NCBI GenBank assembly: GCA_024679955.1
Contig: JAILCQ010000040.1
Location: 1-56,051, forward strand
From: Bacillota bacterium
Lineage (GTDB): Bacteria; Bacillota; Dehalobacteriia; UBA4068
Direction: 5' to 3'
DNA: 56,051 bases
This document shows, piece by piece, positions 26,368 to 52,000 of the stretch. Below the pieces are notes generated by a model. It had not been told where the DNA came from, ran no database searches, and was given only the letters and a program-made list of their open reading frames with translations. A program made the position numbers and the translations under genes. How positions within the stretch are numbered: the first letter of the stretch is position 1; every line of letters begins with the position of its first letter.

Positions 26368-26530
26368 TATGCAAAGAAGTATAGCGTACTTTCTATTTAC
26401 TAGTTATCTAATAATTGAGTATTTGATCTACAAAACAGTCTATTCCCAGTCTGATTCACAATTGTTTTGCAAATCAATATACAGCAGTATTAAGCTCCCG
26501 TTAAAATTGGCAATGAAAGGAGAGCATTTT

Positions 26531-29500
26531 ATGAGCTTGGAACCTGGTGGCCGTGCAGAAAAATACGGAGATGAATATGAGAATCGTTACCTTACCATTC
26601 TTCTGTTACGTGTAGTAAATGAAAGTCTTTCCAATATCATTGTCGAACCAATTGGCGAAAATAGTGATAGCGTAGAGTTTATCACCGAGGATAAATTCGG
26701 CATTTCCGGATACTATCAATGCAAGGCGAGCAATAAGACCAAGCCGGCTTGGAGTATAGCTGATTTAAAGCGTTACGCTGTGTTCACTCGAATAAAAAAT
26801 ATATTATCTGATAATGCAAATGCACATTATTACTTTATTTCTCCTTTAGCTTATAACGAATTGGATGAGATTTGCAAACGTGCAAGAACGACTCTTTCTG
26901 CAAAAGACTTAATGGATTATCAGCTTACAAACGACACAATAAGACGCACCTTTAAAGACTGCGCTAGAGCGTTTCAGTTGGATATTAATTGCGCCCAAGA
27001 TATGGATGCGTTTGTGGCGTTGTTATCTCGTTGCTATTTTGAACAGTGTCCTAATGGAACTGAAGCAGTTCGTGATCTGGAAGAAAGAATCAGCTTGATG
27101 TTTACAGGAGAAGCTTCCGAAGTCCGCATTCTGCTCGAACAATTCTCAAATTCAACAGGAAACTATGGAAAAAGAATTTCGGCAAAAGATATTATTGATT
27201 ATCTGGAATCTCTTAACATCCATGTTCGTATTACACATTTTGATAATCGGATTCTTACCAGAATTAAAACTTTGAACGATATCTATTGGGACACTTGTCC
27301 TACCATTAACGGGCAACTAATCCATAGGGAAGCAACATCAAAAATTATTAATAGAATCAAAGAGGGTGGTTCCGTTATTCTGCATGGGAAAGCCGGAAGT
27401 GGAAAGAGCGGCTGCCTTCAAGAAACGATTAATCAACTAAAACAGGACGGCATACTATATTTGGCAATCAAACTGGACAAAATTGTCCCAGAAACATCCG
27501 CTGACGAGTTTGGCAGAAAGCTTGGACTCCCAGAATCGCCAGTCTACTGTCTTGCCAGGCATGCTGGGGACTCGCCTTGTGTATTGATTCTTGATCAATT
27601 AGACGTTCTTCGGTGGACAACAAGCCATTCGGCGACGGCATTGAGTATTTGCAAAGAGTTGATTAGCCAAACAGAGGTGCTCAATAATCATGAAGGTAAA
27701 AGTATATCTATTGTTTTCGCTTCCAGAACTTTTGATCTTGAAAATGATAGCGGATTGAAAGCTCTGTTTAACAGAGAAAACAGCCAAGGCACCTCAAAGT
27801 GGAAGAAAATAAGTATTGACAACTTTACTCAAAGTGAAGTTGTTCAACTTATAGGAAATTCATATTATCAACTTTCTTCTCGCTTACAAAAGCTTCTGCT
27901 GACACCAGCTTCCTTATATGTTTGGACGCAATTAGAAACGAGCAAAAGAAAAAACAATGTATCCTCTATGCATCAGCTGATGAGAACATGGTGGACGCAA
28001 ATTATAGAAAGCTCCGACGCAAAAGGAATAGCACAAAAAAGGATGATATGTTGTAAAAACAAAATTGTACGCCAAATGGAACAGAATACAATTTTTTCCC
28101 TTCCGATGGCCCTTTTTGTTGACGACGAAAAAGCTATTTTTAATCTGATTTCAAACGGAATGATTCGAACTGATGGAACAAATATTTCATTTGTGCATCA
28201 GAGCTTTCTCGATTTTTTTATTACATTTGATTACTTATCTAAAATCTATGATGGGGATAATGTTGTTGATTTAATAGAACCCTATGACAAACAGATCCCA
28301 CAAGTAAGATACCGACTTGTATCTGTTCTGCAGAACCTTATCGAGTCAAATCAAGATATGTTTGTTCAGCAGGGACGCTCGATATTGGAATCGAGCGGAA
28401 TTCATTATTATTTCCAGTGCGCAGTATTTGAAGTGATTGGTCAATGTGATACTCCTCAAGAATCAATTTATTCTTTGGTTGACCAGTATGCTTTGTTAAA
28501 AGAATGGAACACATATATAATCCAAGTTGTTTATTCTGCTCATCCGGTCTTTTTAAAACATCTAGCAGAACAAGGCTGTGACTGGCTTGAGGATACGAAC
28601 CTCTTACTGCTAAAATCAATAAATAGTAAAGATCCAGACTTCGTCGTAAATACGCTGCGTTCTTATGAAATCGATAATATCGAAGATGCTCGTAGAATCC
28701 ATTGGACTCTTTGCCCCAGCATTGCTGATGACTCGGATGATATGTTTCAATTCCGGATTGAATTGTTGAAAAGGTATCCTGTTCTCTTGGATGATTATTA
28801 TGGAATTCCAGATTTATATATTAGAAATCCACTACGGGCAATTCAGTTACTCAAAATAATCCTGGGAAATAGCTCTAGTCATAAATTCATGAGGGTCTAT
28901 CTTGGAGAAAAAAAACACATCGGCAAGTTTACTCTTAATCACAATGATTTAATCATAAAAGAGTTGTTTCCTCTCATTTGCCAGAAAACCAATTCATTGA
29001 CAATAACATGGCAAAACCATTACTCTTGGCTTAGCAATGATCATCAGGATTGGTTTGCAGACAATATAAAAAAGTCTGTTTTACGAGAGATCGTCGATAT
29101 AACAAAGGGGGCATTAGCTGAGTATGCTATAAAATACCCCAACAAGCTTTGTGAACTCATAAAGGAATACCAACTGTTTTCGTCAGCAATCTGTCATGAA
29201 CTACTCTCGCATGCTATTTTGTGCTTACCGGAAGAACAAGGCAATTTCACCATTCAGTGGTTGCTCCATAATTTTAATGCAAAAGTATTCGTCTTTACGG
29301 ATAATCAAGAGGACTACTTATCATATACAAAACAAATAATCCAAAAGTTTTCTTCGATATGTTCATCCACCTTATTTCAAAAACTTGAGAGCACTATCTG
29401 CAGATGGAAAGACAGCTCAAAAACGATGTGCGATACATATAAGCGTCGTATAGAAATAAACAAGAGTCAACAATATGATCCCTATTACGTTGCGTTTTGG

Positions 29501-31093
29501 GGGCATATGCAAAAAGAATTGCTGCCTTGTCTTGATATAACGCGTATGTCTCGTTATTCACGGGAATTACTCCAGTTATTGAACAGAAATACATGGGTGC
29601 GTATACCGCATTTTAATTCAGGTATCACATTTAGTCCTGTAAAAACAGTAATATCTCCCATACATAATCATGTAGAACAGATTAGCGATGCGAGTTGGCT
29701 AAGAATTATTTCTGCTCCTATTGACAAAATGAGTACGAGCTGGCAAGGGAAGGATCAAGGTTCAGATTATTTTATTGAAACTGATCACAGAGCTTTTTCT
29801 GATTCTCTCAGAAAACAAGCAGAGAGAGAACCTGCACGGTTTGCACAACTATCTCTGAACTTCCCAGATGGGTGCTATGTAGGCTATGTTCTTGGTGTCT
29901 TAGATGCATTGAGAGAAGCAGATAAAAACGATAATCCTGTTGACATTGATTTGATATCCCAAATTATTCGACGGTTTAATACTATTCCAGACCACAATGT
30001 TGCTATCGCAATTGCCCGAGTTGTTGAGCACCTAAAAAAAGAAGCCTGGCCAGATGACATTTTAGATTTGATAGCTGAAATTGCAACAAAGCACCCTAAT
30101 CCCCAAACAGATGAATACTCTATTACAAACAGAGATGACCCTGAACATTTTTCTATAAGAACGCTACAAGAAAACGAGATCAACTGCGCGCGAGGCTGTG
30201 CACTTCATGCAATTGCTGCCCTTGTCTGGGAAAATGGGGATTTGATGGAACGATTCAAGCCAACTGCTTCTATTGGATGTTGTGATAAGAATCCTGCCGT
30301 TCGCTTTGCTGCTTTGCATTGCCTGCTTCCATTTTTCCAGTCAGATAGCGATTTTGTTGTTGCTAAATTAAGACAATTGCTTAATACAGATTTGCGGATT
30401 ATTGGCGCACATGACTTTTGGAATCTTTTATCACAAGATTATCAAAACAACAAACAGGCTTATCGCGATATACTGTTGGAGGCATGTAGGTCTAACTTTG
30501 AAGACTTGTCAGAAGTTGCTGCAGGTATGCTTTGCGCACTTGCGATTTTCACAAATGATGATCAAGCCTATGAGGCCATCACATCATTTGATTTCTCTTT
30601 CGAACAACAAAATAAGATTTGCAAACAAGCTGTATCTTCTTTTGATATCGCCAACTTTCATACGCGCAGCAAAGAGATTTTACTTACCTTTAGTAACAAG
30701 ACAACAAAATATCTATCCAGTTTTAACCAATTGTTTTATGAGAAACGCATTTCGATACAACGAGACAGTGATTTTTTGATTTGTCTTATGAAATCAAGGC
30801 AGAATCAACGGCTACTGTATTCTTTTGTAAACTATCTAAACAAGTCAGACGAAGATATTTGCCAGTTTGCAGAAGCTCTTAAAACACTGGCTGATAGCTT
30901 AGCAGATTCTCCATTCTGTGGATATGAAAGATTGGATGTCCAAAACTTTGTTCAATGTGTTGTTCGTTTGTCAGATAGAAGCAAGGATAATCCGGCGATA
31001 CAAAAAATCTGTCTTGAGATTTGGGACAATCTATTCAAAAACAATTGGCAATATGTAAAACCTATATCGGATATGATTGATTATTTTGAATAG
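26531..31093 (+). CDS. Avs-like defence protein: PD-(D/E)xK nuclease, STAND ATPase, repeat sensor
   Basis: A 1520-residue protein. Residues 1-110 contain a Cap4/DUF4297-like nuclease pattern: GGRAEKYGDEYENRY, then SDSVEF with Asp46, then YYQCKAS with Gln63 and Lys65. A P-loop ATPase follows: Walker A GKAGSGKS (286-293), Walker B CVLILDQLD (350-358), a sensor-like FASRTFDL, and the STAND-type SFVHQSFLDFFI before about 900 residues of helical repeats (for example NPAVRFAALHCLLPFF). This N-effector, central NTPase, C-sensor order is that of antiviral STAND (Avs) proteins, which detect phage proteins and then cut DNA. ATG 26531 has AAAGGAG upstream; earlier in-frame codons are AT-rich leader. No partner gene is needed. 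Confidence 0.85.
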   Translation: MSLEPGGRAEKYGDEYENRYLTILLLRVVNESLSNIIVEPIGENSDSVEFITEDKFGISGYYQCKASNKTKPAWSIADLKRYAVFTRIKNILSDNANAHYYFISPLAYNELDEICKRARTTLSAKDLMDYQLTNDTIRRTFKDCARAFQLDINCAQDMDAFVALLSRCYFEQCPNGTEAVRDLEERISLMFTGEASEVRILLEQFSNSTGNYGKRISAKDIIDYLESLNIHVRITHFDNRILTRIKTLNDIYWDTCPTINGQLIHREATSKIINRIKEGGSVILHGKAGSGKSGCLQETINQLKQDGILYLAIKLDKIVPETSADEFGRKLGLPESPVYCLARHAGDSPCVLILDQLDVLRWTTSHSATALSICKELISQTEVLNNHEGKSISIVFASRTFDLENDSGLKALFNRENSQGTSKWKKISIDNFTQSEVVQLIGNSYYQLSSRLQKLLLTPASLYVWTQLETSKRKNNVSSMHQLMRTWWTQIIESSDAKGIAQKRMICCKNKIVRQMEQNTIFSLPMALFVDDEKAIFNLISNGMIRTDGTNISFVHQSFLDFFITFDYLSKIYDGDNVVDLIEPYDKQIPQVRYRLVSVLQNLIESNQDMFVQQGRSILESSGIHYYFQCAVFEVIGQCDTPQESIYSLVDQYALLKEWNTYIIQVVYSAHPVFLKHLAEQGCDWLEDTNLLLLKSINSKDPDFVVNTLRSYEIDNIEDARRIHWTLCPSIADDSDDMFQFRIELLKRYPVLLDDYYGIPDLYIRNPLRAIQLLKIILGNSSSHKFMRVYLGEKKHIGKFTLNHNDLIIKELFPLICQKTNSLTITWQNHYSWLSNDHQDWFADNIKKSVLREIVDITKGALAEYAIKYPNKLCELIKEYQLFSSAICHELLSHAILCLPEEQGNFTIQWLLHNFNAKVFVFTDNQEDYLSYTKQIIQKFSSICSSTLFQKLESTICRWKDSSKTMCDTYKRRIEINKSQQYDPYYVAFWGHMQKELLPCLDITRMSRYSRELLQLLNRNTWVRIPHFNSGITFSPVKTVISPIHNHVEQISDASWLRIISAPIDKMSTSWQGKDQGSDYFIETDHRAFSDSLRKQAEREPARFAQLSLNFPDGCYVGYVLGVLDALREADKNDNPVDIDLISQIIRRFNTIPDHNVAIAIARVVEHLKKEAWPDDILDLIAEIATKHPNPQTDEYSITNRDDPEHFSIRTLQENEINCARGCALHAIAALVWENGDLMERFKPTASIGCCDKNPAVRFAALHCLLPFFQSDSDFVVAKLRQLLNTDLRIIGAHDFWNLLSQDYQNNKQAYRDILLEACRSNFEDLSEVAAGMLCALAIFTNDDQAYEAITSFDFSFEQQNKICKQAVSSFDIANFHTRSKEILLTFSNKTTKYLSSFNQLFYEKRISIQRDSDFLICLMKSRQNQRLLYSFVNYLNKSDEDICQFAEALKTLADSLADSPFCGYERLDVQNFVQCVVRLSDRSKDNPAIQKICLEIWDNLFKNNWQYVKPISDMIDYFE

Positions 31094-31354: not shown

Positions 31355-32386
31355 TTAGCGCAGATCGGCGATTTCCAGGATCAGACGGCGGGTCTTTTCC
31401 CAGCCCAGGCAGGGGTCGGTGATGGACTTTCCGTAAATGCCTTCTTCCGCCTTTTGGCAGCCGTCCTCGAGATACGACTCGATCATCAGACCTTTCACCA
31501 GGCCGTTTACTTCCGGGGAATGGCGCATGCTGTGCAGGATCTCCTTGGCGATGCGGGGCTGTTCCCACCATTTTTTGCCGGAATTGGCATGGTTGACGTC
31601 CACGATGACCGCCGGATTCTTCAGCCCGCTTTCACTGTAGGCCTGGCACAGCAAAATCAAATCTTCATAATGATAATTGGCATGGGATTGGCCGTATTGG
31701 TTGACATAGCCCCGCAGCACGGCATGGGCCAGCGCATTGCCTTTGCTGGCCACTTCCCAGCCGCCGTATTCAAACGTATGCCCGTTTTGGGCGGCGGTGA
31801 TGGCGTTGATCATCACCGAAAGGTCGCCGCTGGTGGGGTTTTTCATGCCCACCGGCAGATCCAGGCCGCTGGCGGTCAGCCGGTGCTGCTGATTTTCCAC
31901 AGAGCGGGCCCCCACCGCCACATAGGAAAGGATATCCCCCAGATAGCGATGGTTTTCCGGGTACAGCATTTCATCCGCGCCGGAAAAACCGGTTTGTTCC
32001 AGGGCTTTGATATGCACCTTGCGAATGGCGATCAGCCCTTTGAGCATATTCGGGGAGCCGTTGGGATCGGTTTGATGCAGCATGCCTTTATACCCCGCGC
32101 CGGTGGTGCGGGGTTTGTTGGTATATATACGGGGGATAATGATGATTTTATCCTTCACCTGCTCCTGCACGCCCCGCAAACGGGAAATATAGTCCAAAAC
32201 CGCGTCTTCCCGATCGGCGGAACAGGGGCCGATCACCAGAATAAATTTGTCGCTTTCGCCGCGGAACACCTTTTGTATTTCTTCGTCGTTGTGCGCTTTT
32301 TGCCGGGCCAGACTTTCCGAAAGCGGATACATGCTCATGACTTCCTCGGGGGTAGGCAATTTGCGTTTGAATTCCATGTTTATCAT
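31355..32386 (-). CDS. aroF: DAHP synthase, class I (AroFGH type)
   Basis: A 343-residue enzyme joining phosphoenolpyruvate and erythrose-4-phosphate, the entry step of the shikimate pathway. Family motifs: LVIGPCSADR with the metal-binding Cys, YTNKPRTTGAGYKG, GARSVENQQHR, GMKNPTSGD, and VDVNHANSGK with the metal-binding His. It is the last gene of the eight-gene operon, 14 nt after tyrA. Its placement at the end of a Phe/Tyr-attenuated operon means that supply and end-branch enzymes are controlled together. Which amino acid inhibits this isozyme cannot be told by eye. Confidence 0.97.
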   Translation of the reverse strand: MINMEFKRKLPTPEEVMSMYPLSESLARQKAHNDEEIQKVFRGESDKFILVIGPCSADREDAVLDYISRLRGVQEQVKDKIIIIPRIYTNKPRTTGAGYKGMLHQTDPNGSPNMLKGLIAIRKVHIKALEQTGFSGADEMLYPENHRYLGDILSYVAVGARSVENQQHRLTASGLDLPVGMKNPTSGDLSVMINAITAAQNGHTFEYGGWEVASKGNALAHAVLRGYVNQYGQSHANYHYEDLILLCQAYSESGLKNPAVIVDVNHANSGKKWWEQPRIAKEILHSMRHSPEVNGLVKGLMIESYLEDGCQKAEEGIYGKSITDPCLGWEKTRRLILEIADLR

Positions 32387-32400
32387 CGGGGTACGCTCCT

Positions 32401-33249
32401 TTATTGATCAAAATAGGTTCGGTTGGCGGTGGAAAGCCGCATCATTTTCTCTATTTCCGGCACGTTTTCCGCCTGCAAATTGTTGCGAAGCGTCATAAAC
32501 CGGTCGATAAAAATATCCATTTGCCGCAAAAGCTCTTCTTTGTTGGCCAAAAACAGCTCGCTCCACATGGTCTCATTGATTTTGGCGATACGGGTCAGAT
32601 CCCGAAACGAGTCGCCGGTATAATCCTTCAGCCGGGGGGAATCGTGACAGGTCATCAGGGAAATGGCAATGCAGTGGGTCAGCTGGGAAAGAAAAGCGAT
32701 CATCTCGTCATGTTCTTCCGGGGACAGGGTGCAAATGCGCTTGAAGCCCAGGGTGCGGCCAAAATCCATACAGCGTTCTATGGCCGCCTGGCTGTTGGCC
32801 GCCGTAGGGACCACAATATAATTGGCGTCGGTGAATATCTCTTTGGCGGCGTTGACCACGCCGCTGCTTTCCCGGCCGGCCATGGGATGGGCGGCGATGA
32901 ATTCCACATCCGGACGCAGCATTTGCTGGGCCGGGTAAACCACCGGCACTTTCACTCCGGTCACGTCGGTCAGCAAAGCCCCCGGCTTCAGCAGATGCTG
33001 ATGGTCCCGGAGCCATTGGAGGAACACATGGGGATACAGGGCGAAAACCACCAGGTCAAAATCGCCCACATAATCCGCGTCCGGCCGGGTGCGGCCATGA
33101 CGGATCATGCCCCGCTGCAAAGCGAATTGCAAATCCGACTCTTCTTTGGTCACCGCGCCCACTTCATAGCCTTGGTCGCTCAGGGCCTGGGCATAGCTGC
33201 CGCCGATCAGCCCCAGCCCCACCACCAGTATTTTTTGGCTTTTATCCAT
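32401..33249 (-). CDS. tyrA: Prephenate dehydrogenase
   Basis: A 282-residue NAD(P)-dependent enzyme making 4-hydroxyphenylpyruvate for tyrosine. The N-terminal Rossmann motif GLGLIGGSYA, then LTDVTGVK, the active-site HPMAGRESSGV, and helical LSQLTHCIAISL identify it. It lacks a chorismate mutase fusion and a C-terminal ACT domain. It could be arogenate-specific; sequence alone does not settle this. It overlaps the aroA stop by 8 bp. Confidence 0.95.
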   Translation of the reverse strand: MDKSQKILVVGLGLIGGSYAQALSDQGYEVGAVTKEESDLQFALQRGMIRHGRTRPDADYVGDFDLVVFALYPHVFLQWLRDHQHLLKPGALLTDVTGVKVPVVYPAQQMLRPDVEFIAAHPMAGRESSGVVNAAKEIFTDANYIVVPTAANSQAAIERCMDFGRTLGFKRICTLSPEEHDEMIAFLSQLTHCIAISLMTCHDSPRLKDYTGDSFRDLTRIAKINETMWSELFLANKEELLRQMDIFIDRFMTLRNNLQAENVPEIEKMMRLSTANRTYFDQ

Positions 33250-34453
33250 CCGCGTAATCGACCTCCAATCCCAATTGGCGCAGGGCCCGGAAAAAGCCGC
33301 CGAAGCTTTTGTTCACCGCCTCCGCCCCTTCGATGACGCCGCCGGTAAACGCCGCCAATACCGAAAGGGCCATGACGATACGGTGATCGTTATGTCCCCA
33401 AAGGGGCTGCTGGGGCGGGCCGAAGGATTTGGCGATGATTTCCACGGTGTTGTCGCCGGTTTTCCCTTCCACGCCGAATTTTTTCAGTTCCGCCAGCATC
33501 GCCTGGACGCGGTCGCTTTCCTTGATGGCCAAACGCCGGGTGCCGTAAAAGCGGGCCCCGTGTTTGGCGGCGGCCACGGCAAAAAGCACCGGGCCCAGAT
33601 CGGGGCAATCGGACAGATCCAGCTCCGCGCCGGGGCTGTCCAGGGCAGCCAGCATATCCAGGCACACCCGGTCCCCCTGCAGGCTATGGGGATTCAAGCC
33701 GGTAACCTCCACCGCCCCGCCCAAAGCCCCCAGGGCGTAGAAAAAGGCGGCGTTGGACCAATCCCCTTCCACAGCAAAGCGCCCCGGCCGGTATTGCTGC
33801 CCGCCGGGGACGGCAAAGGCGTTTTCCCCCTGGGGCAAAACCGCAATGCCGAAACGCTCCAGCACGTCCAGGGTCAGCCTGATATAGGAGCGGCTTTCCA
33901 CCGGCGGCCGTATCTCGATGCGGCTGTCCGCCGGCAGCAAGGGCAAGGCCAGCAATAAACCGGAAATAAACTGGCTGCTGACGTCTCCCCGGGGCCGGTA
34001 TATCCCCGGCTGCAAAAGGCCGCTTATCCGCAAGGCGTTTTTTTCCTCCGTCAGCATGATCCCGGTACCGGTCAGTATCTCCCGGTAAACGCCGACGCCC
34101 CGGGCCATCAGCCGTTCCGTGCCGCAAAAGCGGATCTCGCCGCCGCCCAACAGGGCCACAGGCAAAAGCAGCCGCAGGGTGCTGCCGCTTTCCCCGCAAA
34201 GCAAAGGCCCGGCCGCCGCCGGACGGCCGCCGCAGCCGTTCATATGCAAAACCCCGTCTTCCAGCCGGTATTTGGCCCCCAGGGCGGACAGGCAATCCAA
34301 AGTGGCCCGGATATCCTGGCTCAGGGCTACTCCTTGCAGCTGGCTTTCCCCCGCCGCCAAAGCCGCGGCGATCAACAGGCGATGGGCATAGCTTTTGGAG
34401 GGCGGCGCCGCCACCGTTCCCTTGGGGCTGCCCCCTTTAAATTCCGCTTTCAT
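33242..34453 (-). CDS. aroA: EPSP synthase (3-phosphoshikimate 1-carboxyvinyltransferase)
   Basis: A 403-residue enzyme, slightly shorter than the usual 427. PSKSYAHRLLIAAALA is the shikimate-phosphate-binding N-terminal motif. CGESGSTLRLLLP and GDWSNAAFF follow, and LAIKESDRVQAM and HNDHRIVMALSV are the PEP-site motifs. The start overlaps aroQ by 17 bp. Confidence 0.97.
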   Translation of the reverse strand: MKAEFKGGSPKGTVAAPPSKSYAHRLLIAAALAAGESQLQGVALSQDIRATLDCLSALGAKYRLEDGVLHMNGCGGRPAAAGPLLCGESGSTLRLLLPVALLGGGEIRFCGTERLMARGVGVYREILTGTGIMLTEEKNALRISGLLQPGIYRPRGDVSSQFISGLLLALPLLPADSRIEIRPPVESRSYIRLTLDVLERFGIAVLPQGENAFAVPGGQQYRPGRFAVEGDWSNAAFFYALGALGGAVEVTGLNPHSLQGDRVCLDMLAALDSPGAELDLSDCPDLGPVLFAVAAAKHGARFYGTRRLAIKESDRVQAMLAELKKFGVEGKTGDNTVEIIAKSFGPPQQPLWGHNDHRIVMALSVLAAFTGGVIEGAEAVNKSFGGFFRALRQLGLEVDYADG

Positions 34454-34895
34454 GGGCTTTTTCCTCCAAATGGGCTTTCAGAATATCTATAGCCTGCAAA
34501 TATCCGGCAAAGCCCTGGCCGGAAACAGTGGCCAAAACGCAATCCCGCACATAGCTGGTCTGCCGGAAGGCCTCCCTTTTTTCCACCTGGGAAATATGCA
34601 CCTCCACCGCGGGCAGGGCCACCGCTTTCAAGGCGTCGGCAATGGCCACGCTGGTATGGGTATAGGCGGCGGGGTTGATGACGATACCGTCCACGGCGTC
34701 AAAATAGGCGTTTTGTATGGCGTCCACGATCGCCCCTTCGTGATTGGATTGAAAAAACTGCGCGTCCACGCCAATCTCCCCGGCGTGATCGGCGATTTGC
34801 CGCAGCAGGCTGTTGTAGTCTTCCTTGCCGTAAATATCCGGCTCCCGTATGCCCAATAAATTGAGATTGGGGCCGTTGATCACCAAGATACGCAT
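34437..34895 (-). CDS. aroQ: 3-Dehydroquinate dehydratase, type II
   Basis: A 152-residue type II enzyme. NGPNLNLLGIREPDIYG contains the catalytic Tyr, followed by FFQSNHEGAIVDAI, INPAAYTHTSVAIADAL and VEVHISQVEKREAFR. It dehydrates 3-dehydroquinate by the anti mechanism. ATG 34895 has GGAGG 10 nt upstream, inside the end of the aroE-aroK gene. Confidence 0.97.
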   Translation of the reverse strand: MRILVINGPNLNLLGIREPDIYGKEDYNSLLRQIADHAGEIGVDAQFFQSNHEGAIVDAIQNAYFDAVDGIVINPAAYTHTSVAIADALKAVALPAVEVHISQVEKREAFRQTSYVRDCVLATVSGQGFAGYLQAIDILKAHLEEKAHESGI

Positions 34896-36136
34896 TTGTC
34901 GAATTCCTCCAAAATCTTTTCGCATACGGCTTCCGCCGGGCCGCCGGCGTCGATCCGCACATGGGCGGCTTGGCAATACAGGGGATACCGCTGCCGGTAA
35001 AGCCGCTCCAAGGCTTGCCGGTCGGCGGAAAGGGGCCGGTCGTCATAGGGCTGCAAAAGCGCCAAAGGCCGGTCCAGAAAATACAGCCTGCCGTTGCGGC
35101 GCAAGTGCCGCATATTGTCCCCGTCCAGCACCGCGCCGCCGCCGGTGGCGATGACGCAGCCGTTTTCTTCCGCCAATTGGGCGATGGCTTCCTTTTCGAT
35201 GCGGCGAAAAGCCGCTTCTCCCCGGCTGCGGATGATTTGCGCCGGGCTTTCCCCCTGCCGCTGCGCCACCCAGTCGTCGGCGTCCAGGAAGCGGCGGCCG
35301 GTCTTTTCCGCCAGCAGTTTTCCTACCAGGCTTTTACCGCTGGCAGGCATGCCGATCAAAACCAGATTCTCCTTATCCCGGCGCAGGCGGCGATAAATCT
35401 CTTCCGTTTGTCCTTCCGGCGGATCGCTGTCAAAGCCCAAAAACAGCCGGGAAGCGTAAACCGCCTGGGCCGCCAGCATATACAGGCCGCCTTCCGCCGT
35501 CAAGCCCCGTTCCTTGGCGGCAAGGATCAAATTGGTGTTCAGCGGATTGTATATGGCGTCGAAAACCGCCGTCAAGCGGGGCAGGCCGGCAATATCCATG
35601 GGCTGGCCCTCGCTGTCGGGGAACATCCCCGCCGGGGTGGCGTTGATCAAGCCCCGGGCGTCGCTGTGGGATGCCTGCGCCTGGTCATAAGAGACCGTCC
35701 CCGGCCGGCCGCTGCGGGAAACGGTGACGATGGACCCGGCCCCCAAATCCTCCGCCACAGCCCGCATGGTTTTGGCCGCGCCGCCGCTGCCCAGCAGCAG
35801 CACCTTTTTTCCCCGCCAATCCACCTGCCGCCGGCGTATCCAGTCCATGGCGCCGGCATAGTCAGTATTGTATCCCCATAGTTTCCCCTCCCGATTGATC
35901 ACGGTATTGACCGCGCCGATGCGGGCCGCCGCCGGGGAAAGCCCGTCCAGATAGGGGATGATCTGTTCTTTATAGGGGATGGTGACATTGACGCCGCAAA
36001 AGTCGCGGCGGCGGAAAAAATCCGCCGTTTGCTCCGGCTCCAGCTCCAGCAATTCATAGCGGTAATCGCCGATGCAGGCATGGATCTCCGGGGAAAAGCT
36101 GTGCCCCAGCCGCCGGCCGATCAATCCATATCGCAT
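34880..36136 (-). CDS. aroE-aroK: Fused shikimate dehydrogenase - shikimate kinase
   Basis: A 418-residue bifunctional protein. Residues 1 to about 245 are AroE: GLIGRRLGHSFSPEIH, NVTIPYKEQ with the catalytic Lys, GAVNTVI, GYNTDYAGAM with Asp, and the NADP-loop LLLGSGGAAKT. After a short linker, residues about 256-418 are AroK: P-loop GMPASGKS (262-269), DADDWV, RGEAAFRRIE and ATGGGAV. It performs two consecutive steps, dehydroshikimate to shikimate to shikimate-3-phosphate. ATG 36136 follows GGGAGG at 5-6 nt. Both halves keep their catalytic motifs. Confidence 0.95.
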   Translation of the reverse strand: MRYGLIGRRLGHSFSPEIHACIGDYRYELLELEPEQTADFFRRRDFCGVNVTIPYKEQIIPYLDGLSPAAARIGAVNTVINREGKLWGYNTDYAGAMDWIRRRQVDWRGKKVLLLGSGGAAKTMRAVAEDLGAGSIVTVSRSGRPGTVSYDQAQASHSDARGLINATPAGMFPDSEGQPMDIAGLPRLTAVFDAIYNPLNTNLILAAKERGLTAEGGLYMLAAQAVYASRLFLGFDSDPPEGQTEEIYRRLRRDKENLVLIGMPASGKSLVGKLLAEKTGRRFLDADDWVAQRQGESPAQIIRSRGEAAFRRIEKEAIAQLAEENGCVIATGGGAVLDGDNMRHLRRNGRLYFLDRPLALLQPYDDRPLSADRQALERLYRQRYPLYCQAAHVRIDAGGPAEAVCEKILEEFDKCVSW

Positions 36137-37236
36137 ACCGGCCTCCCTTTCGTAAACACATCCGTACCGTAACGCTGGGCCAGCAAATCGCAAAGCACCA
36201 GGGCGGTGACGGCGTCGATCACCGGGCAAATGCGGCGGACGATGGCCGGGTCGTGCCGGCCGGCAATGCGCAAAACCGCGTTTTCCCCGGTGAGAAAATT
36301 CACCGTTTGCTGTTCCCTGCCAATGGACGGGGTGGGCTTTACCGCGCATTGAAACAAGATGGGCATGCCGTTGCTGACGCCGCCGTTGATACCGCCGTTG
36401 CGATTGGTGACGGTGATCACCCGGCCCTTTTCCATACGCATGGCGTCATTGGCTTGACTGCCCCGAAGCTCGGCCAGTTGAAAGCCGTCGCCGAAGGACA
36501 CGGCCTTGACGCCGCCGATGCTGAACAAAGCATGGGAAAGCAGGCCCTCCACGCTGTCGAACCAAGGCTCGCCCAGGCCCGCCGGCAGGCCGGTCACCGC
36601 GGTCTGCACCACGCCGCCGATGCTGTCCCCCGCCTCCTTGGCGGCGAGAATGGCGGCAATCATAGCTTCGCCGCGGCTTTCCGTCAGCACCGGGAAGGCC
36701 GCCCGGTTCAAGCAGGCGATATCCTGCTCCAGGCAGTCAAAATCCCGATCCTCCACGCCGCCGCAGCGCAAAATATGGGTGCCCAGGGCCACCCCGGTCC
36801 CGGCCAGGGCGGTCAGCAGCACCGCCCCCAACGCCGTCAAAGCGGCGGTGACCCGGCCGGAAAAATGGCCGCCGCCCCGGTAATCCTCATAACCGTGATA
36901 TTTGCAAAAACCGGCGTAATCCCCGTGGGAAGGCCGGGCCAGGCCCCGGTTTTTTTCATAATCGCCGCTGTGCTGATCCTGATTGGCCAGGACGATGCAC
37001 AAAGGCGTACCGGTGGTCTTGCCCTGGAACACGCCGCTGAGTATGCGGAAATCGTCTGCCTCCCGCCGGGGGGTATCCCAGGGGGCGGAGGGCCGCCGCC
37101 GGTCCAGCAGGCGGCGAATGGCCTCGCCGTCCACGGGTATGCCAGGGGCCAGGCCGTCGATGACGCCGCCCACAGCCGGGCCGTGGCTTTCGCCGAACAG
37201 GGTCAAAGATACGCTGTGGCCAAAAGTGTTTTTCAT
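36121..37236 (-). CDS. aroC: Chorismate synthase
   Basis: A 371-residue flavin-dependent enzyme: FGHSVSLTLFGESHGPAVGG at the N-terminus, then RPSHGDYAGFCKYHGYEDYR, GGGHFSGRVTAALTALGAV, RNGGINGGVSNGMPI and the C-terminal AGRHDPAIVRRICPV. The RPSHGDYAGFCKY block departs somewhat from the common RPGHAD form, probably natural variation. ATG 37236 follows GGAGG and overlaps the aroB stop by 4 bp. Confidence 0.97.
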   Translation of the reverse strand: MKNTFGHSVSLTLFGESHGPAVGGVIDGLAPGIPVDGEAIRRLLDRRRPSAPWDTPRREADDFRILSGVFQGKTTGTPLCIVLANQDQHSGDYEKNRGLARPSHGDYAGFCKYHGYEDYRGGGHFSGRVTAALTALGAVLLTALAGTGVALGTHILRCGGVEDRDFDCLEQDIACLNRAAFPVLTESRGEAMIAAILAAKEAGDSIGGVVQTAVTGLPAGLGEPWFDSVEGLLSHALFSIGGVKAVSFGDGFQLAELRGSQANDAMRMEKGRVITVTNRNGGINGGVSNGMPILFQCAVKPTPSIGREQQTVNFLTGENAVLRIAGRHDPAIVRRICPVIDAVTALVLCDLLAQRYGTDVFTKGRPVCDMD

Positions 37237-38243
37237 AACCGTTCCTCCAAATGGGCCCGCCATTGTTCCTCATCCCAGCGGACGAAAGAAAACGAGCCGA
37301 TCTCCTCCACATATACCCCGGCCACCGTGCCGCCGGCGTCCATTTTCTTATCATGCAGCAAAAAGGGCATCAGATCCGTGGCCTGCGCCTGTACCTGCCG
37401 GGGCAAACGGAATTTTGCCAAAACCTGCTCCAACTGGGGCAAAACCGCCGGCCCGCACATCAGACGCATGCCCAAAGCCACGCATTCCCCATGCAGCAGG
37501 CGGCCCTGGGCAAAGCTTTCTATGGCATGCCCTACGGTGTGGCCGAAATTCAGCACCCGCCGCAAGCCGTTTTCCTGGGGATCGCTTTCCACCACCTGTT
37601 TTTTCACCAGCAGGGAGCGGTATATCACTTCCTGCCAATCCGCCGGGTCGTTTTCGATGCGGCTTAACAGCCGAAACAATTCCCCGTCGCAGGTCAGCGC
37701 CATTTTGACCGACTCGGCCACCCCGGCGTTGAACTGTCTTTCCTCCAAGGTTTTCAGGGTGTCCGGATCGATCAGCACCTTTTTCGGCTGATGAAACGCG
37801 CCCACGGGGTTTTTTACCCCTTGGAAATTCACGGCGGTCTTGCCGCCGATGGAAGAATCCACCTGGGACAAAAAGGTGGTGGGGATATTATAGAAATCCA
37901 CGCCCCGCATATAGGTAGCGGCGGCGAAACCGCTGACGTCCCCCACCATGCCGCCGCCTACCGCCAGCACGCAATCCCGGCGGCCGAAGCCGTTTTCCAG
38001 CATGACGGCCAGCAGCCGCTGATAGGATCCCATACTTTTGCTGGCTTCTCCCTGAGGCAGGGTCACCACCTGGGGCTCCCGGCAGCAGGCCGCCGCCTGC
38101 CGCACATATTCCGCAGGCACCCCATCGTCAGTGACCAGCAAGACCTTGCGCTGCAGCTGCAAATACTGATTTGCCTGGGATAAAACTCCCGGCTGCAATA
38201 CGATGTCATAGCCGTCCCGATCCAAATCCATCCGAATGATCAT
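37233..38243 (-). CDS. aroB: 3-Dehydroquinate synthase
   Basis: A 336-residue NAD- and metal-dependent enzyme. Motifs: VLAVGGGMVGDVSGFAAATYMRGVDF, PTTFLSQVDSSIGGKTAVN, GVAESVKMALTCD, and metal ligands in LNFGHTVGHAIES with a following HGECVALGM. It converts DAHP to dehydroquinate. It lies 76 nt after pheA and is coupled to aroC by ATGA overlap. Confidence 0.97.
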   Translation of the reverse strand: MIIRMDLDRDGYDIVLQPGVLSQANQYLQLQRKVLLVTDDGVPAEYVRQAAACCREPQVVTLPQGEASKSMGSYQRLLAVMLENGFGRRDCVLAVGGGMVGDVSGFAAATYMRGVDFYNIPTTFLSQVDSSIGGKTAVNFQGVKNPVGAFHQPKKVLIDPDTLKTLEERQFNAGVAESVKMALTCDGELFRLLSRIENDPADWQEVIYRSLLVKKQVVESDPQENGLRRVLNFGHTVGHAIESFAQGRLLHGECVALGMRLMCGPAVLPQLEQVLAKFRLPRQVQAQATDLMPFLLHDKKMDAGGTVAGVYVEEIGSFSFVRWDEEQWRAHLEERL

Positions 38244-38319
38244 CCGTTTTTCCTTTCATATTTTATTGCGTCTTTCGCGGCAAGTTGCGGCAAAGCTTTG
38301 TCGAAAAGCCGTTTTCTCC

Positions 38320-39408
38320 TCAGGCGCTGTAAGACCCCACCAGCCGCAGGCGGGCGCAGACCGCGGAAAGCTCCCGCAGCATATCCTGGCCGCTTTGGCT
38401 GCTGATATTGCCTTCCGCCTCAATATAGAAGTAATAATTCCACAGCAAGCCTTTCATGGGCCGGCTGCGCAAGGCCCGCATATTGAAATTGTGGGCGCCG
38501 ATGATATTCAAGGCTTTGGCCAGGGCCCCCGCCTCATTGCGCACGGTGAACACCAGGACAAAGCATTCGTTTTCGTTTTTGCTGCTGGGCGAAGGGGGAT
38601 TGGCCGCCCGGGAAAACACGGCGAAGCGGGTGGCGTTGCTTTTGCTGGCGTTGATATGGCTTTCCAAAACCTGCAGGCCGAAAATGCGGGCGGTTTCCGC
38701 CGAGGCCACGGCGGCCACGGTTTCGTCCCCTTCCTCCCGCACATATTTGGCGGCCAGGGCGGTATTGGCATAGGCCACCACATCCCAGCCGTGCTCCTTG
38801 ATAAAAGCGTCGCATTGGGCCAGGGCCTGGGGATGGCTGACCACGGTTTTGATCGTTTGCAGACTGGCCTCTTCCCTGGCCAGCAAATTGTGGACGATAT
38901 CCAGATCGATCATCTGATTGATATACAGGGAACCGGAAAAGATCAAATCCATCACCGCGCCCACAGCCCCGGCATAGCTGTTTTCCACCGGCAAAACCGC
39001 GCAATCAAAATCGCCGTTTTCCACCGCCCGGTAGGCGTCGGCAAAGTCGCTGCAGGGGGTATATTCGCCGCCGGGAAAAATCTTTTGGGCGGCGATGTGG
39101 CTAAAAGCCCCTTCCACGCCGCTGTAGGCCACCTTCACCCCCTGGGACAGCCGGTACTGATACTCCCGGGAAAGGCGCATGGTCTCCCGCAGGAACTGGC
39201 TGTAATATTCCCGCAGGGTGCTGTCGGAGATTTTCTCCGGCCTGCCGTTCAGCATCTCTTTTTCCCGCGCTTTGTCCAAAACCGGCAGGGCGTGTTCGGT
39301 TTTGTAGCGGGCCACCCGTTCTCCCGCCCGCATACGGCGCTCGAACAGCTTGGCCATCTGTTCGTCGATCTCGTCGATTTCCAAGCGGGCCTTTTCCAAT
39401 TCGTTCAT
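38320..39408 (-). CDS. pheA: Bifunctional chorismate mutase / prephenate dehydratase (P-protein)
   Basis: A 362-residue P-protein. Residues 1 to about 85 are an AroQ-type chorismate mutase helix bundle (LEIDEIDEQMAKLFERRM, EREKEML-like region, YYSQFLRETMRLSREYQ). From about 92 is prephenate dehydratase (VAYSGVEGAFSHIAA, LPVENSYAGAVGAV, NATRFAVFSR with the catalytic Thr-Arg-Phe). From about 285 is an ACT regulatory domain (LVFTVRNEAGALAKALNIIG and NMRALRSRPMKG), so feedback inhibition by phenylalanine is likely. ATG 39408 is better spaced from AGAGGT than ATG 39414. It is the first structural gene after the attenuator. Confidence 0.96.
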   Translation of the reverse strand: MNELEKARLEIDEIDEQMAKLFERRMRAGERVARYKTEHALPVLDKAREKEMLNGRPEKISDSTLREYYSQFLRETMRLSREYQYRLSQGVKVAYSGVEGAFSHIAAQKIFPGGEYTPCSDFADAYRAVENGDFDCAVLPVENSYAGAVGAVMDLIFSGSLYINQMIDLDIVHNLLAREEASLQTIKTVVSHPQALAQCDAFIKEHGWDVVAYANTALAAKYVREEGDETVAAVASAETARIFGLQVLESHINASKSNATRFAVFSRAANPPSPSSKNENECFVLVFTVRNEAGALAKALNIIGAHNFNMRALRSRPMKGLLWNYYFYIEAEGNISSQSGQDMLRELSAVCARLRLVGSYSA

Positions 39409-39471
39409 TTTCATTACCTCTCTATTCTACTATTATTTTATAATCTTCTTTTCGCCGGGGCAAGAAGCCAT

Positions 39472-39502
39472 AAAAAAAGAGGTTCCCGTTTGAGGAACCC
39501 CT
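39472..39502 (-). terminator. Attenuator terminator of the aromatic operon
   Basis: On the minus strand AGGGGTTCC, loop TCAAACG and GGAACCTCT form a 9-bp stem with one G-U, followed by a run of T. It sits between the leader-peptide stop and pheA. Upstream AGGATTCC (39545-39538, minus strand, leader codons 47-49) can instead pair with GGGGTTCCT of the terminator arm, forming an antiterminator. Confidence 0.85.
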
Positions 39503-39518
39503 ATAACATGCCGGTTTT

Positions 39519-39683
39519 TCAACACGATACCGGAAGCGGAATCCTATGCAAACGGACAAAAGAACGAGCCAGGCCATAGCCAAAAAAGCGGTACGCAAAA
39601 AAACGAACCGCGCCGGTAAAAGAATACCAGTTGAAATGGCAGGCGGGAAAAGCAGCCTGGTTAATCGTTTCGTTGGTATGCAC
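39519..39683 (-). CDS. Phe/Tyr-rich leader peptide of the aromatic operon
   Basis: A 54-codon frame starting GTG 39683, 8 nt after GGAGGG, and ending TGA at 39521-39519. Residues 12-42 hold 8 Phe, 3 Tyr and 1 Trp, including RFFAYRFFGY. The frame lies about 27 nt after the predicted transcript start and ends just upstream of the intrinsic terminator. Composition and position are those of an attenuation peptide (compare enterobacterial pheL). When charged tRNA-Phe or tRNA-Tyr is scarce, the ribosome would stall in residues 28-42, leaving the AGGATTCC segment free to form the antiterminator. When supply is ample it would reach the stop codon and the terminator would form. A longer overlapping frame (39422-39745) has no such signals. 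Confidence 0.88.
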   Translation of the reverse strand: MHTNETINQAAFPACHFNWYSFTGAVRFFAYRFFGYGLARSFVRLHRIPLPVSC

Positions 39684-39716
39684 CGTTTCCACCCTCCTTG
39701 TCCGGGAATATCTTGC

Positions 39717-39745
39717 ATTATACTATAGGCGAAAAAAAAAAGCAA
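39717..39745 (-). promoter_or_regulatory. Promoter of the aromatic operon
   Basis: On the minus strand TTGCTT (39745-39740), 17 bp that include a T-tract, and TATAAT (39722-39717). The start is expected near 39710, giving a leader of about 300 nt before pheA. The rest of 39746-39862 has no gene. Confidence 0.8.
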
Positions 39746-49083: not shown

Positions 49084-52000
49084 ATGGAAGCACAACGTCT
49101 GGAACATGTGCTGAACGAGTATTTCCGGCAAACCGGGGAGGATGTGGCCCAACAAACCGCGCCTTCCTGGTTTGAACATGTTTTGCGCAAATCCGCCTAT
49201 CTGGCGGAAAAAGGAGAAAAACCGGACTGGGACGCAGGGCGTTGGGCGGAACTCACCGATATGCGGGGCCTGGCGGATCCGGAAGAACAGCCGGCAGCGG
49301 CGGACGGCGTCCCGCCGGCGGAAACCGGCCCCGAGCCGGAACCCATGCCATCGCCCAATCCCGTGATCAAAAGCAAAGGCCGCCCCGGCAGGCGGCCGCC
49401 TAAATTCCGCCGGGCCTGGATGGGCTCTCTGGCGGCGGCGCTGGTGCTGTTCATCGGCTTCTTCAGCGCGCTGCATCTTCTTCCGGAACAGGAAGAAGAA
49501 CTGCCCCGCAGCTTTGGCGGGGCCATAGACGTCGTCGCCCAAAGCGACGCCGCCGGCGCGGTGACCAGCTTTGTGATCACCTCCGGGCAGCCTTTAAGCG
49601 AAGAACTGGTGCGGCAGGCTTTGACCATCTCCCCGGCCACCGAATACCGGGTAGCTCTGGAAGACGGCGGCAACGAAGCGGTGATCACGCCCACCGGTCC
49701 CCTGCAGGCGGGCAGCGTCTACAGCGTCAGCTTCGACCCGGAACAGTATCTGGCCGATCTGCCGCCCCGGGCCTCGCATACCTGGGCCTTTCAAACGGAA
49801 AGTCCCTTTGCCGTAAAAACAGTGCATCCCCAGGATCTAAGCACCTGGGTGGACGTAGCCACCGGCATAACCATCGCCTTCAATCAGACAGTCGACCCTT
49901 CCGCGGCCAAAGCCGTCTCCCTTTCCCCGGAGACCCCCGGCCAATGGCAGACGGAAGGCAACCGGCTGCTGTTCATCCCCAGCCAACCCCTGGCCGGCGA
50001 AACCGTATATGAAATCACCCTGGACGCTTCCGTCAGCGCCGCCGCCGGCGGCGCTTTGGGCGAAGAAAAAGTATACCGCTTCCAAACCGCCCCGATCGAT
50101 GAGGCGGAAGAAGAGACGGACGTATCCTGGCAGGCGGAAAACGACGAAAGCAATTTTTCGCCGGAAACCGTTCCCGGCCTGAGCCTGTACGCCTGGGGAG
50201 AAGCATTGGAAAAAGGCCCGGCGGCAGCGGAAGCCGTGCTGTACGCCTATAAAGATACGGAACAGTACGCGGCGGCTTTGCAAGAGCGCTACGGCGAATA
50301 TTTCTGGGCGCAAAACTTCGGCGAACAAAAATTGCCCACCGCCGCTTTGAAAAAATACGGCAGCTTTACCCTGCAGCCCGCCCCCGCCCCCGACGCCGGA
50401 TACAGCGGCCGCTACCGGCTGACCTTCCCCCAGGCCCTGCCGGAAGGCAGCTATCTGGCGGAACTGACCTGGTACGGCCAAACCCGGCAAGTCCTGTTCA
50501 CCGTATCGCCTCTGGCCGTATACATCGCCCAGGGTGAAAGCGACGCGCTGCTGTGGCTGCATGAAGGGAAGGAAGCAGCCCAGGCCAATATCCGCATCTA
50601 CGACGGCAAAGAAAACGCCACTGCCGGCCCCCAGGGCGTGGCCAGCCTGGCCCTGCCGGAAGGCGACCGGGAAGGCCGCACCGTATACCTGATCGACAGC
50701 GGCGAACATTCCCTGGCGGCGGCAGCCATGAACAGGGAGGCATTGTACCGCCTGTATGAAGCCAAGGAAGACGGTTTCCGTTTTGACTACTGGCATTACC
50801 TGTACGCCGACCGCACCCTGTACAAGCCCGGCGATACGGTATACCTGTTCGGCGTGGCCCAGGCCAAACAAGGGGCTTCGGCCATAGACCGGGTGGAGCT
50901 TCGTTTGACCGGCGGCAATTTGCCGGCGCAGGGCGACGCCCTGACCTGGGAGCTGCCGGTGGAAGACGGCGTCTACAGCGGGGAGATTTCCTTGCCCCAA
51001 TTGCAGGAAGGCTACTACACCCTGGAAGCCGTTTGCGACGGCGGTATGCTGGACAGCGTCTTTTTCCAGGTAGCCGACTATGACCTGCCCTCCTTCAAGA
51101 TACAAGTGACCTGCGACCGCCAGGCGGCGATGATCGGCGACCGGGTAAACTGGACCATGGAAGCCGCCTATTTTGACGGCACCCCCGCCGCCAACGTTTC
51201 CCTTAGCTACAGCTTTTGGGATCAACCGGAGGCGCAGGCCGTCACCGACAGCAACGGCCGGGCCACTGTGGAGACCGTTCTGGAAGGCGATGTGCTGGGC
51301 TGGGATTATATCCTCTATCCGGCGGGACTGTTCGTCCGCGCCACCCTGCCGGAAGGCGGCGAGGTCTACGCCGACGGCTATTGCGACGTATTCCTCAACC
51401 GGGAGGAGGCCAAAGGGGAATTGACGGCCGAAGGCGACGCCTACCGGCTGACCCTGGAAGGCTACAGCGTGGATCTCACGGATATACAGCCCTACGAAGG
51501 GGACGAAGAGCTGAAGGAACAAGCCTTTACCCGGCTTTCCCAGCCGCTGAACCTGCACGCCGAGTTGATCCATTGCGGCTTCCGCCAGGAAAAGGAAAGC
51601 AAATACAACGCCTATACCCAGCAGTTGGAAGAATCAATCCGCTATGTCAGCTATGAAGAAACGGAAGATCAGTTCGATCTCACCTTGAACGATTCCCGGG
51701 AAACTTCTTTCCGCGGGACCCTGGCCCATCCCCAGGACGCCTACCGCCTGGAACTGACGGGGCAGGACGCCGCCGGCCGGGAATTGAAACGGCTCTTTTA
51801 TCTGTGGCGGCAGGACGAATACCGATCCTACTGGCTGCAAAGCCGGGATGAAGAGGCGGACAGCCTGTACCGGCAGGGCGAGACCCTTGACCTGTATGCC
51901 GGCGACGGCCGGGAAGCGATGCAGCAGCCCGCCGGCGGAGAATGGCTGTTTTTCGCCTGCCAAAAGGATATCATCGATTATCAAGTCAAAGAAGAGAACC

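Follow-up and report, generated by a model that had tools for sequence, protein, structure and literature searches.

Introduction

The locus studied here raises the question of how an operon for the synthesis of phenylalanine and tyrosine is controlled when its first gene, pheA, is preceded by a short open reading frame rich in Phe and Tyr codons. For the shikimate pathway of gut and rumen Clostridia, control by T-boxes or repressors is what one would assume by default. The original prediction, made from the letters of the window (the whole stretch of 56,051 nucleotides that was analysed), instead proposed attenuation by a leader peptide. Having followed this proposal through conservation, RNA folding and comparison with relatives, we consider it very probable that the leader is a ribosome-mediated transcription attenuator, which reads the charging of Phe and Tyr tRNAs.

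Results

Organisation of the leader and the downstream operon

Promoter, ribosome site, Phe/Tyr-rich ORF and terminator could all be located on the minus strand, in the order claimed for them, ahead of pheA. The promoter (39717..39745) combines a −35 element TTGCTT (39745-39740) with a −10 element TATAAT (39722-39717) over a 17-nt spacer, and since just 3 of 6 positions of the −35 element match, it is absent from the list returned by the consensus promoter scan. Both hexamers and their spacing are identical in the sister species (locus L032), and promoters of the TTGACA-17-TATAAT type occupy the equivalent position in other leaders. The Shine-Dalgarno sequence AAGGAGG (39693..39699), present at similar spacing in L032, is followed by the leader ORF (39519..39683), which starts with GTG at 39683, encodes the 54 residues VHTNETINQAAFPACHFNWYSFTGAVRFFAYRFFGYGLARSFVRLHRIPLPVSC and ends with TGA at 39521-39519.

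Downstream, likewise on the minus strand, lie in this order pheA (chorismate mutase-prephenate dehydratase, 38320..39408), aroB (3-dehydroquinate synthase, 37233..38243), aroC (chorismate synthase, 36121..37263), an aroE-aroK fusion (shikimate dehydrogenase and shikimate kinase, 34880..36349), aroQ (type II dehydroquinase, 34437..34976, start codon provisional, PF01220 at 184 bits), aroA (EPSP synthase, 33242..34453), tyrA (prephenate dehydrogenase, 32401..33249) and aroF (DAHP synthase, 31355..32386). These eight genes cover all steps to Phe and Tyr bar the final aminotransferase, so that the operon was rightly described as complete for both amino acids. The order pheA-aroB(-aroC-aroEK) is found in most leader loci.

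A weak promoter-like element, TTGCCC-17-TAAAAT at 39463-39435 in the interval between terminator and pheA, could permit basal transcription independent of the attenuator. In the related loci L101 (~1584-1620), L102 and L055, a well-formed promoter-like TTGACA-N17/18-TATGGT (TATGTT in L055) is located after the leader stop codon and ahead of the terminator; RNAs initiated there would begin inside the stem of the terminator and could escape attenuation. Elsewhere in the window, two very large plus-strand ORFs of 1574 and 1729 aa occupy 26369-31093 and 49084-54273.

Composition and conservation of the leader ORF

Translation of the ORF confirmed the predicted counts of eight Phe and three Tyr codons, ten of these 11 falling within residues 17-42. 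With the Phe+Tyr fraction of 6.8% in seven operon proteins as baseline, the enrichment amounts to P(≥11 of 54) = 9e-4 for the whole ORF and to P(≥10 of 26) = 4e-6 for residues 17-42, a 26-residue stretch picked post hoc. Comparison with L032, in which the ORF is conserved, showed almost no variation at any site of the core or of the 3′ portion of the ORF, where synonymous changes are few, and free variation in the first 15 codons. Conservation of the leader frame, on which the original prediction had made its reading depend, extends to an AVRFFAYx-type core in 23 sequenced leaders, the window counted, with its Arg retained in every one of them. Beyond this core, peptide sequence and length vary freely, and the Phe/Tyr codons extend well past it. 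A Pfam search of the leader ORF gave no match.

A conserved hairpin inside the ORF

What is best conserved across the leader family is an element that the original prediction did not contain, a hairpin within the ORF (hairpin 1, 39588..39611, minus strand) with the arms and loop GCGGTTCG-TTTTTTTG-CGTACCGC, spanning the codons for AVRFFAYR and followed by T6 at 39587-39582. In the window it reaches −10.5 kcal/mol (z −3.2). Of the synonymous recodings, drawn so as to keep both the peptide and the third-base composition of the leader itself, nearly all were less stable than the native hairpin, with p 0.017 for the window and a Fisher value of 2.7e-20 over 15 representatives. Nine pairs are 90% formed across 21 distinct sequences, and four pairs, corresponding to eight cells, are changed on both sides, a cell count attained in 0 of 500 shuffles; the stem thus shows compensatory changes. 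The sequences compared are related and not independent, and a sliding control at +3 gives some apparent covariation (0.165 against 0.214); the recoding test is the stronger evidence. The stem is also kept where the peptide is altered, as in AMRWFAYR, AKRWFAYR, AVRIFTYC, AVRFFEYW and AVRFFADC, and among the loop codons Phe is mostly retained with varying third bases, as control codons would be. These computations show that hairpin 1 is under selection at the RNA level.

In most leaders, stem and downstream sequence, with 5-7 T in the first 8 nt, resemble an intrinsic terminator. Two GC-rich leaders, L042 and L075, have the hairpin and no T tract. A one-base deletion in the hairpin loop of L069 (2756-2785) shifts the leader frame with the stem kept, which is either an error of the MAG or a leader deprived of its later Phe/Tyr codons.

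Terminator and alternative pairing

The intrinsic terminator predicted before pheA (segments 3:4, AGGGGTTCCTCAAACGGGAACCTCT plus T run, 39472..39502, minus strand) was recovered by pattern scan and folding, its stem-loop extending over 39502-39478 and its T7 reaching to 39472, with −13.9 kcal/mol and z −3.5. A terminator hairpin could be delimited, by hand, in 23 of 23 leaders. Segment 2, the 5′ strand of the antiterminator (CGTTTGCATAGGATTCCG, 39537..39554, minus strand), pairs with GGGGTTCCTCAAAC, that is with the 5′ arm and loop of the terminator, at −11.6 kcal/mol. The antiterminator segment of the original prediction therefore exists and is longer than described; in the window alone its pairing is not significant against shuffles (p 0.22-0.24), and its support comes from relatives. 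Single loci range from p 0.005 to 0.24, and the family reaches a Fisher value of 3.4e-9 over 15 representatives, where, as for hairpin 1, the Fisher values treat related sequences as independent and where, for L198, the segment-2 search region was extended beyond the stop following inspection. Because the pairing sequences differ between lineages (GCAAAGGA/TCCTTTGC, ATAAGAGAA/TTCTCTTAT and GGGATAACCG/CGGTTTCCC), the match is not mere sequence conservation, and the alternative stem recurs in relatives with different sequences.

Dependence of the alternative pairing on ribosome position

We folded the RNA ahead of the ribosome codon by codon, with transcription having proceeded just beyond the terminator loop. 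With the A site in the Phe/Tyr cluster 9-15 antiterminator pairs are formed, and with the ribosome at the stop codon 0-5, in 15 of 16 leaders, the exception being L198, whose segment 2 is located past the stop. On average, the switch point lies near the end of the Phe/Tyr cluster. The antiterminator 5′ strand of the window ends 16 nt short of the stop codon, and a ribosome waiting at the stop may therefore not cover all of it.

In the absence of a ribosome, 15 of 16 leaders retain 8-15 antiterminator pairs, and L032 has 5.2. Since the antiterminator forms in most leaders without a ribosome, there is no classical protector helix (1:2), an element that is accessory and not obligatory in ribosome-mediated amino-acid attenuators. 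Of the conserved elements, the autonomous hairpin 1 alone could keep untranslated transcripts off or hold the polymerase for the ribosome. The equilibrium fold of most leaders favours the full terminator, so a kinetic decision must underlie the switch, as it does in other attenuators.

Distribution of the leader family

PheA relatives of the window, sought across 84,980 species genomes, yielded 60 loci. A short ORF with the AVRFFAYx core, followed by further Phe/Tyr codons, is found upstream of pheA in L032 and in many MAGs labelled Lachnospiraceae or Clostridia, the genomes being mostly uncultured bins. All 23 leaders stand before pheA operons in Clostridia-type genomes; in four (L039, L049, L050 and L055) the leader is more distant from pheA, with other sequence intervening. 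The contig of L043 begins just before pheA, and a matching leader found where a second contig of that genome ends (L098) was treated as its leader. Five leaders outside the model (L173, L174, L178, L186 and L198), 160-220 nt before pheA, were added by the core covariance model or by pattern. Nearly all carriers have the core pattern once per genome.

A class-wide pattern search gave 11 further matches, which on inspection were due to chance, hits of the family-level model under ~35 bits were mostly ordinary terminators with no leader ORF, and a second match in G070 is no leader. Upstream of another pheA (L086, ~145-70 nt before the gene) stands a Phe/Tyr leader of another kind, MFKKSFYFYFNMAMDCGIICEAE; it has an RBS and a terminator, lacks the VRFFAY hairpin and may be an independent attenuator.

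Among order- and family-level relatives of the window's genome, the leader was found in the sister species alone. Mapped onto a tree of 45 PheA sequences, presence of the leader takes 5 changes, compared with 14.2 for shuffled labels, and PheA of the window (operon 31355-39411) falls nearer to its counterparts from other Clostridia-type MAGs than to those of its own family. Because of this tree and of the missing leader in order and family relatives, a joint transfer of operon and leader is suggested, and is likelier than vertical descent.

Discussion

The features of the general attenuator class are present at this locus: clustered codons for the product amino acids, a terminator before the first gene and, at family level, an antiterminator that depends on position. 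Leader-peptide attenuation as originally proposed is supported by a conserved ORF, a Phe/Tyr cluster upstream of the alternative pairing and a position scan that switches. In the mechanism that we infer for coupling and starvation response, RNA polymerase would transcribe the leader ORF, on which a ribosome would initiate, and hairpin 1 with its T-rich downstream sequence would probably pause the polymerase, letting the ribosome catch up. With Phe- or Tyr-tRNA scarce, the ribosome would halt in the Phe/Tyr cluster, leaving segment 2 near the ORF end free to pair with the 5′ arm of the terminator once this is made, and the operon would be transcribed. With both plentiful, the ribosome would clear the cluster and cover segment 2, the terminator would form and transcription would stop.

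Coupling between ribosome and polymerase is thought to be loose in bacteria of this group. Since attenuators need the ribosome to keep pace, the conserved hairpin within the ORF is a concrete proposal for how coupling could be secured. Probably, hairpin 1 with its T-rich downstream sequence acts as a signal for RNA polymerase to pause or to stop by default, against which stands that the GC-rich L042 and L075 lack a T tract. NusG-dependent pauses of B. subtilis involve a hairpin lying 11-12 nt from the end of the RNA, with a TTNTTT motif in between (PMC12288461), and on the tlrB leader peptide of the same organism a pause of this type keeps ribosome and polymerase in step (PMC6851288). TTNTTT follows hairpin 1 by 0-1 nt in 11 of 18 leaders, the window among them, and is thus not universal in the family, and the Asn-Thr pair of NusG (N81/T82) described as critical, seen as RNT, is present in the window's genome and in all leader genomes examined for their NusG region. 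This match is a fit and not proof, and a role of hairpin 1 as a first terminator is likewise possible.

Tentatively, and with somewhat less than even confidence, we go further and propose an attenuator with two checkpoints, in which the leader coding sequence doubles as a pause or terminator hairpin for RNA polymerase whose loop and T tract are themselves Phe control codons. The hairpin would here replace the protector helix and enforce coupling, so that untranslated leaders would be off and only a ribosome starved in the cluster would give expression. A related but unlikely reading takes hairpin 1 as the regulated terminator itself, opened by the translating ribosome in a pyrBI-like coupling, with the second terminator as a backup. 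The terminator-like stem and T tract of most leaders speak for it, as does the antiterminator that forms without a ribosome in most of them, so that something else must stop untranslated transcripts; but a hairpin acting in this way alone gives the wrong sign for starvation, the consensus terminator scan of the window does not list it, and the hairpins of L042 and L075 are without a T tract.

Conservation of the core could also be owed to the peptide. If VRFFAY were a nascent-peptide arrest sequence that, within the ribosome tunnel, sensed Phe/Tyr in free form or some other small molecule, the Phe/Tyr codons would not be the sensor; a core far more conserved than the remaining peptide, with Arg in 23 of 23 leaders, speaks for this. 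We regard this as improbable, since the CG of the Arg codon sits in the hairpin stem, whereby an RNA constraint explains the Arg, since the peptide varies in the five variants named above while the hairpin holds, and since the Phe/Tyr codons run on well past the core. Least credible of all, and very improbable, is that the ORF is a genuine gene for a small protein, such as one of the membrane, whose transcript the terminator just ends: good translation signals and many aromatic residues would suit it, but sequence and length are free outside the core, Pfam has no match, synonymous changes are scarce in the core and towards the 3′ end, as an RNA constraint predicts, and the leader is linked to pheA operons. 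On the attenuator reading, this is a Phe/Tyr-sensing family through which gut and rumen Clostridia would govern their whole shikimate pathway, and for whose annotation the 24-nt core provides a handle.

Comparison with known systems

Rfam scans of the window and 47 other loci gave no other RNA class at the leader, none being above threshold, and uORFC-13-1 did not come up in them; over the whole window only a tRNA was found, with no T-box (RF00230) upstream of the operon, the five T-boxes of the window's genome all lying elsewhere. With E. coli pheL (RF01859) the leader shares a Phe-rich leader peptide, a terminator before pheA and an alternative antiterminator. It differs in its many Tyr codons, in having no protector helix that sequesters segment 2, in its autonomous hairpin within the ORF and in the control of a whole shikimate operon, and membership in the pheL family was rejected at 18.3 bits, with a threshold of 55. 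The original prediction called attenuation of the pheL kind uncommon in Bacillota; rare it is, but precedents are documented for his and ilv, and the RF01859 score sets the present leader apart from pheL proper.

As far as the parts of PMC9413887 and PMC2965389 available to us describe them, his leaders of Bacillota are ribosome-mediated attenuators, which, as here, stand in place of T-boxes in biosynthetic operons; they carry His codons before his genes, and no such hairpin within the ORF is described in those parts. Two reports from Breaker's group are compared here by their descriptions and not by alignments. According to the portion of PMC8632094 consulted, uORFC-13-1, reported from Acholeplasma and environmental sequences only, is a Phe uORF before aroF and shares with our leader the position at a shikimate gene, a U run, an extra helix and a terminator. 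Two uORFs with Phe/Tyr codons at shikimate genes, as outlined in what we consulted of PMC6429828, resemble it in these codons before such genes and, by description alone, could be related to the present family. Our literature search found no paper describing the AVRFFAYx leader motif. The family is absent from Rfam; the kind of attenuation is itself known and not a new mechanism.

For attenuation by a leader peptide in Bacillota, genetic support is provided by the leucine attenuator of S. aureus ilv (PMC5794164), which differs in its Leu codons and its ilv-leu operon. The tlrB leader of B. subtilis (PMC6851288), finally, resembles the present one in that a hairpin with a T-rich pause synchronises RNA polymerase and ribosome, and is unlike it in sensing tylosin and in placing the pause between leader peptide and gene, not inside the control codons.
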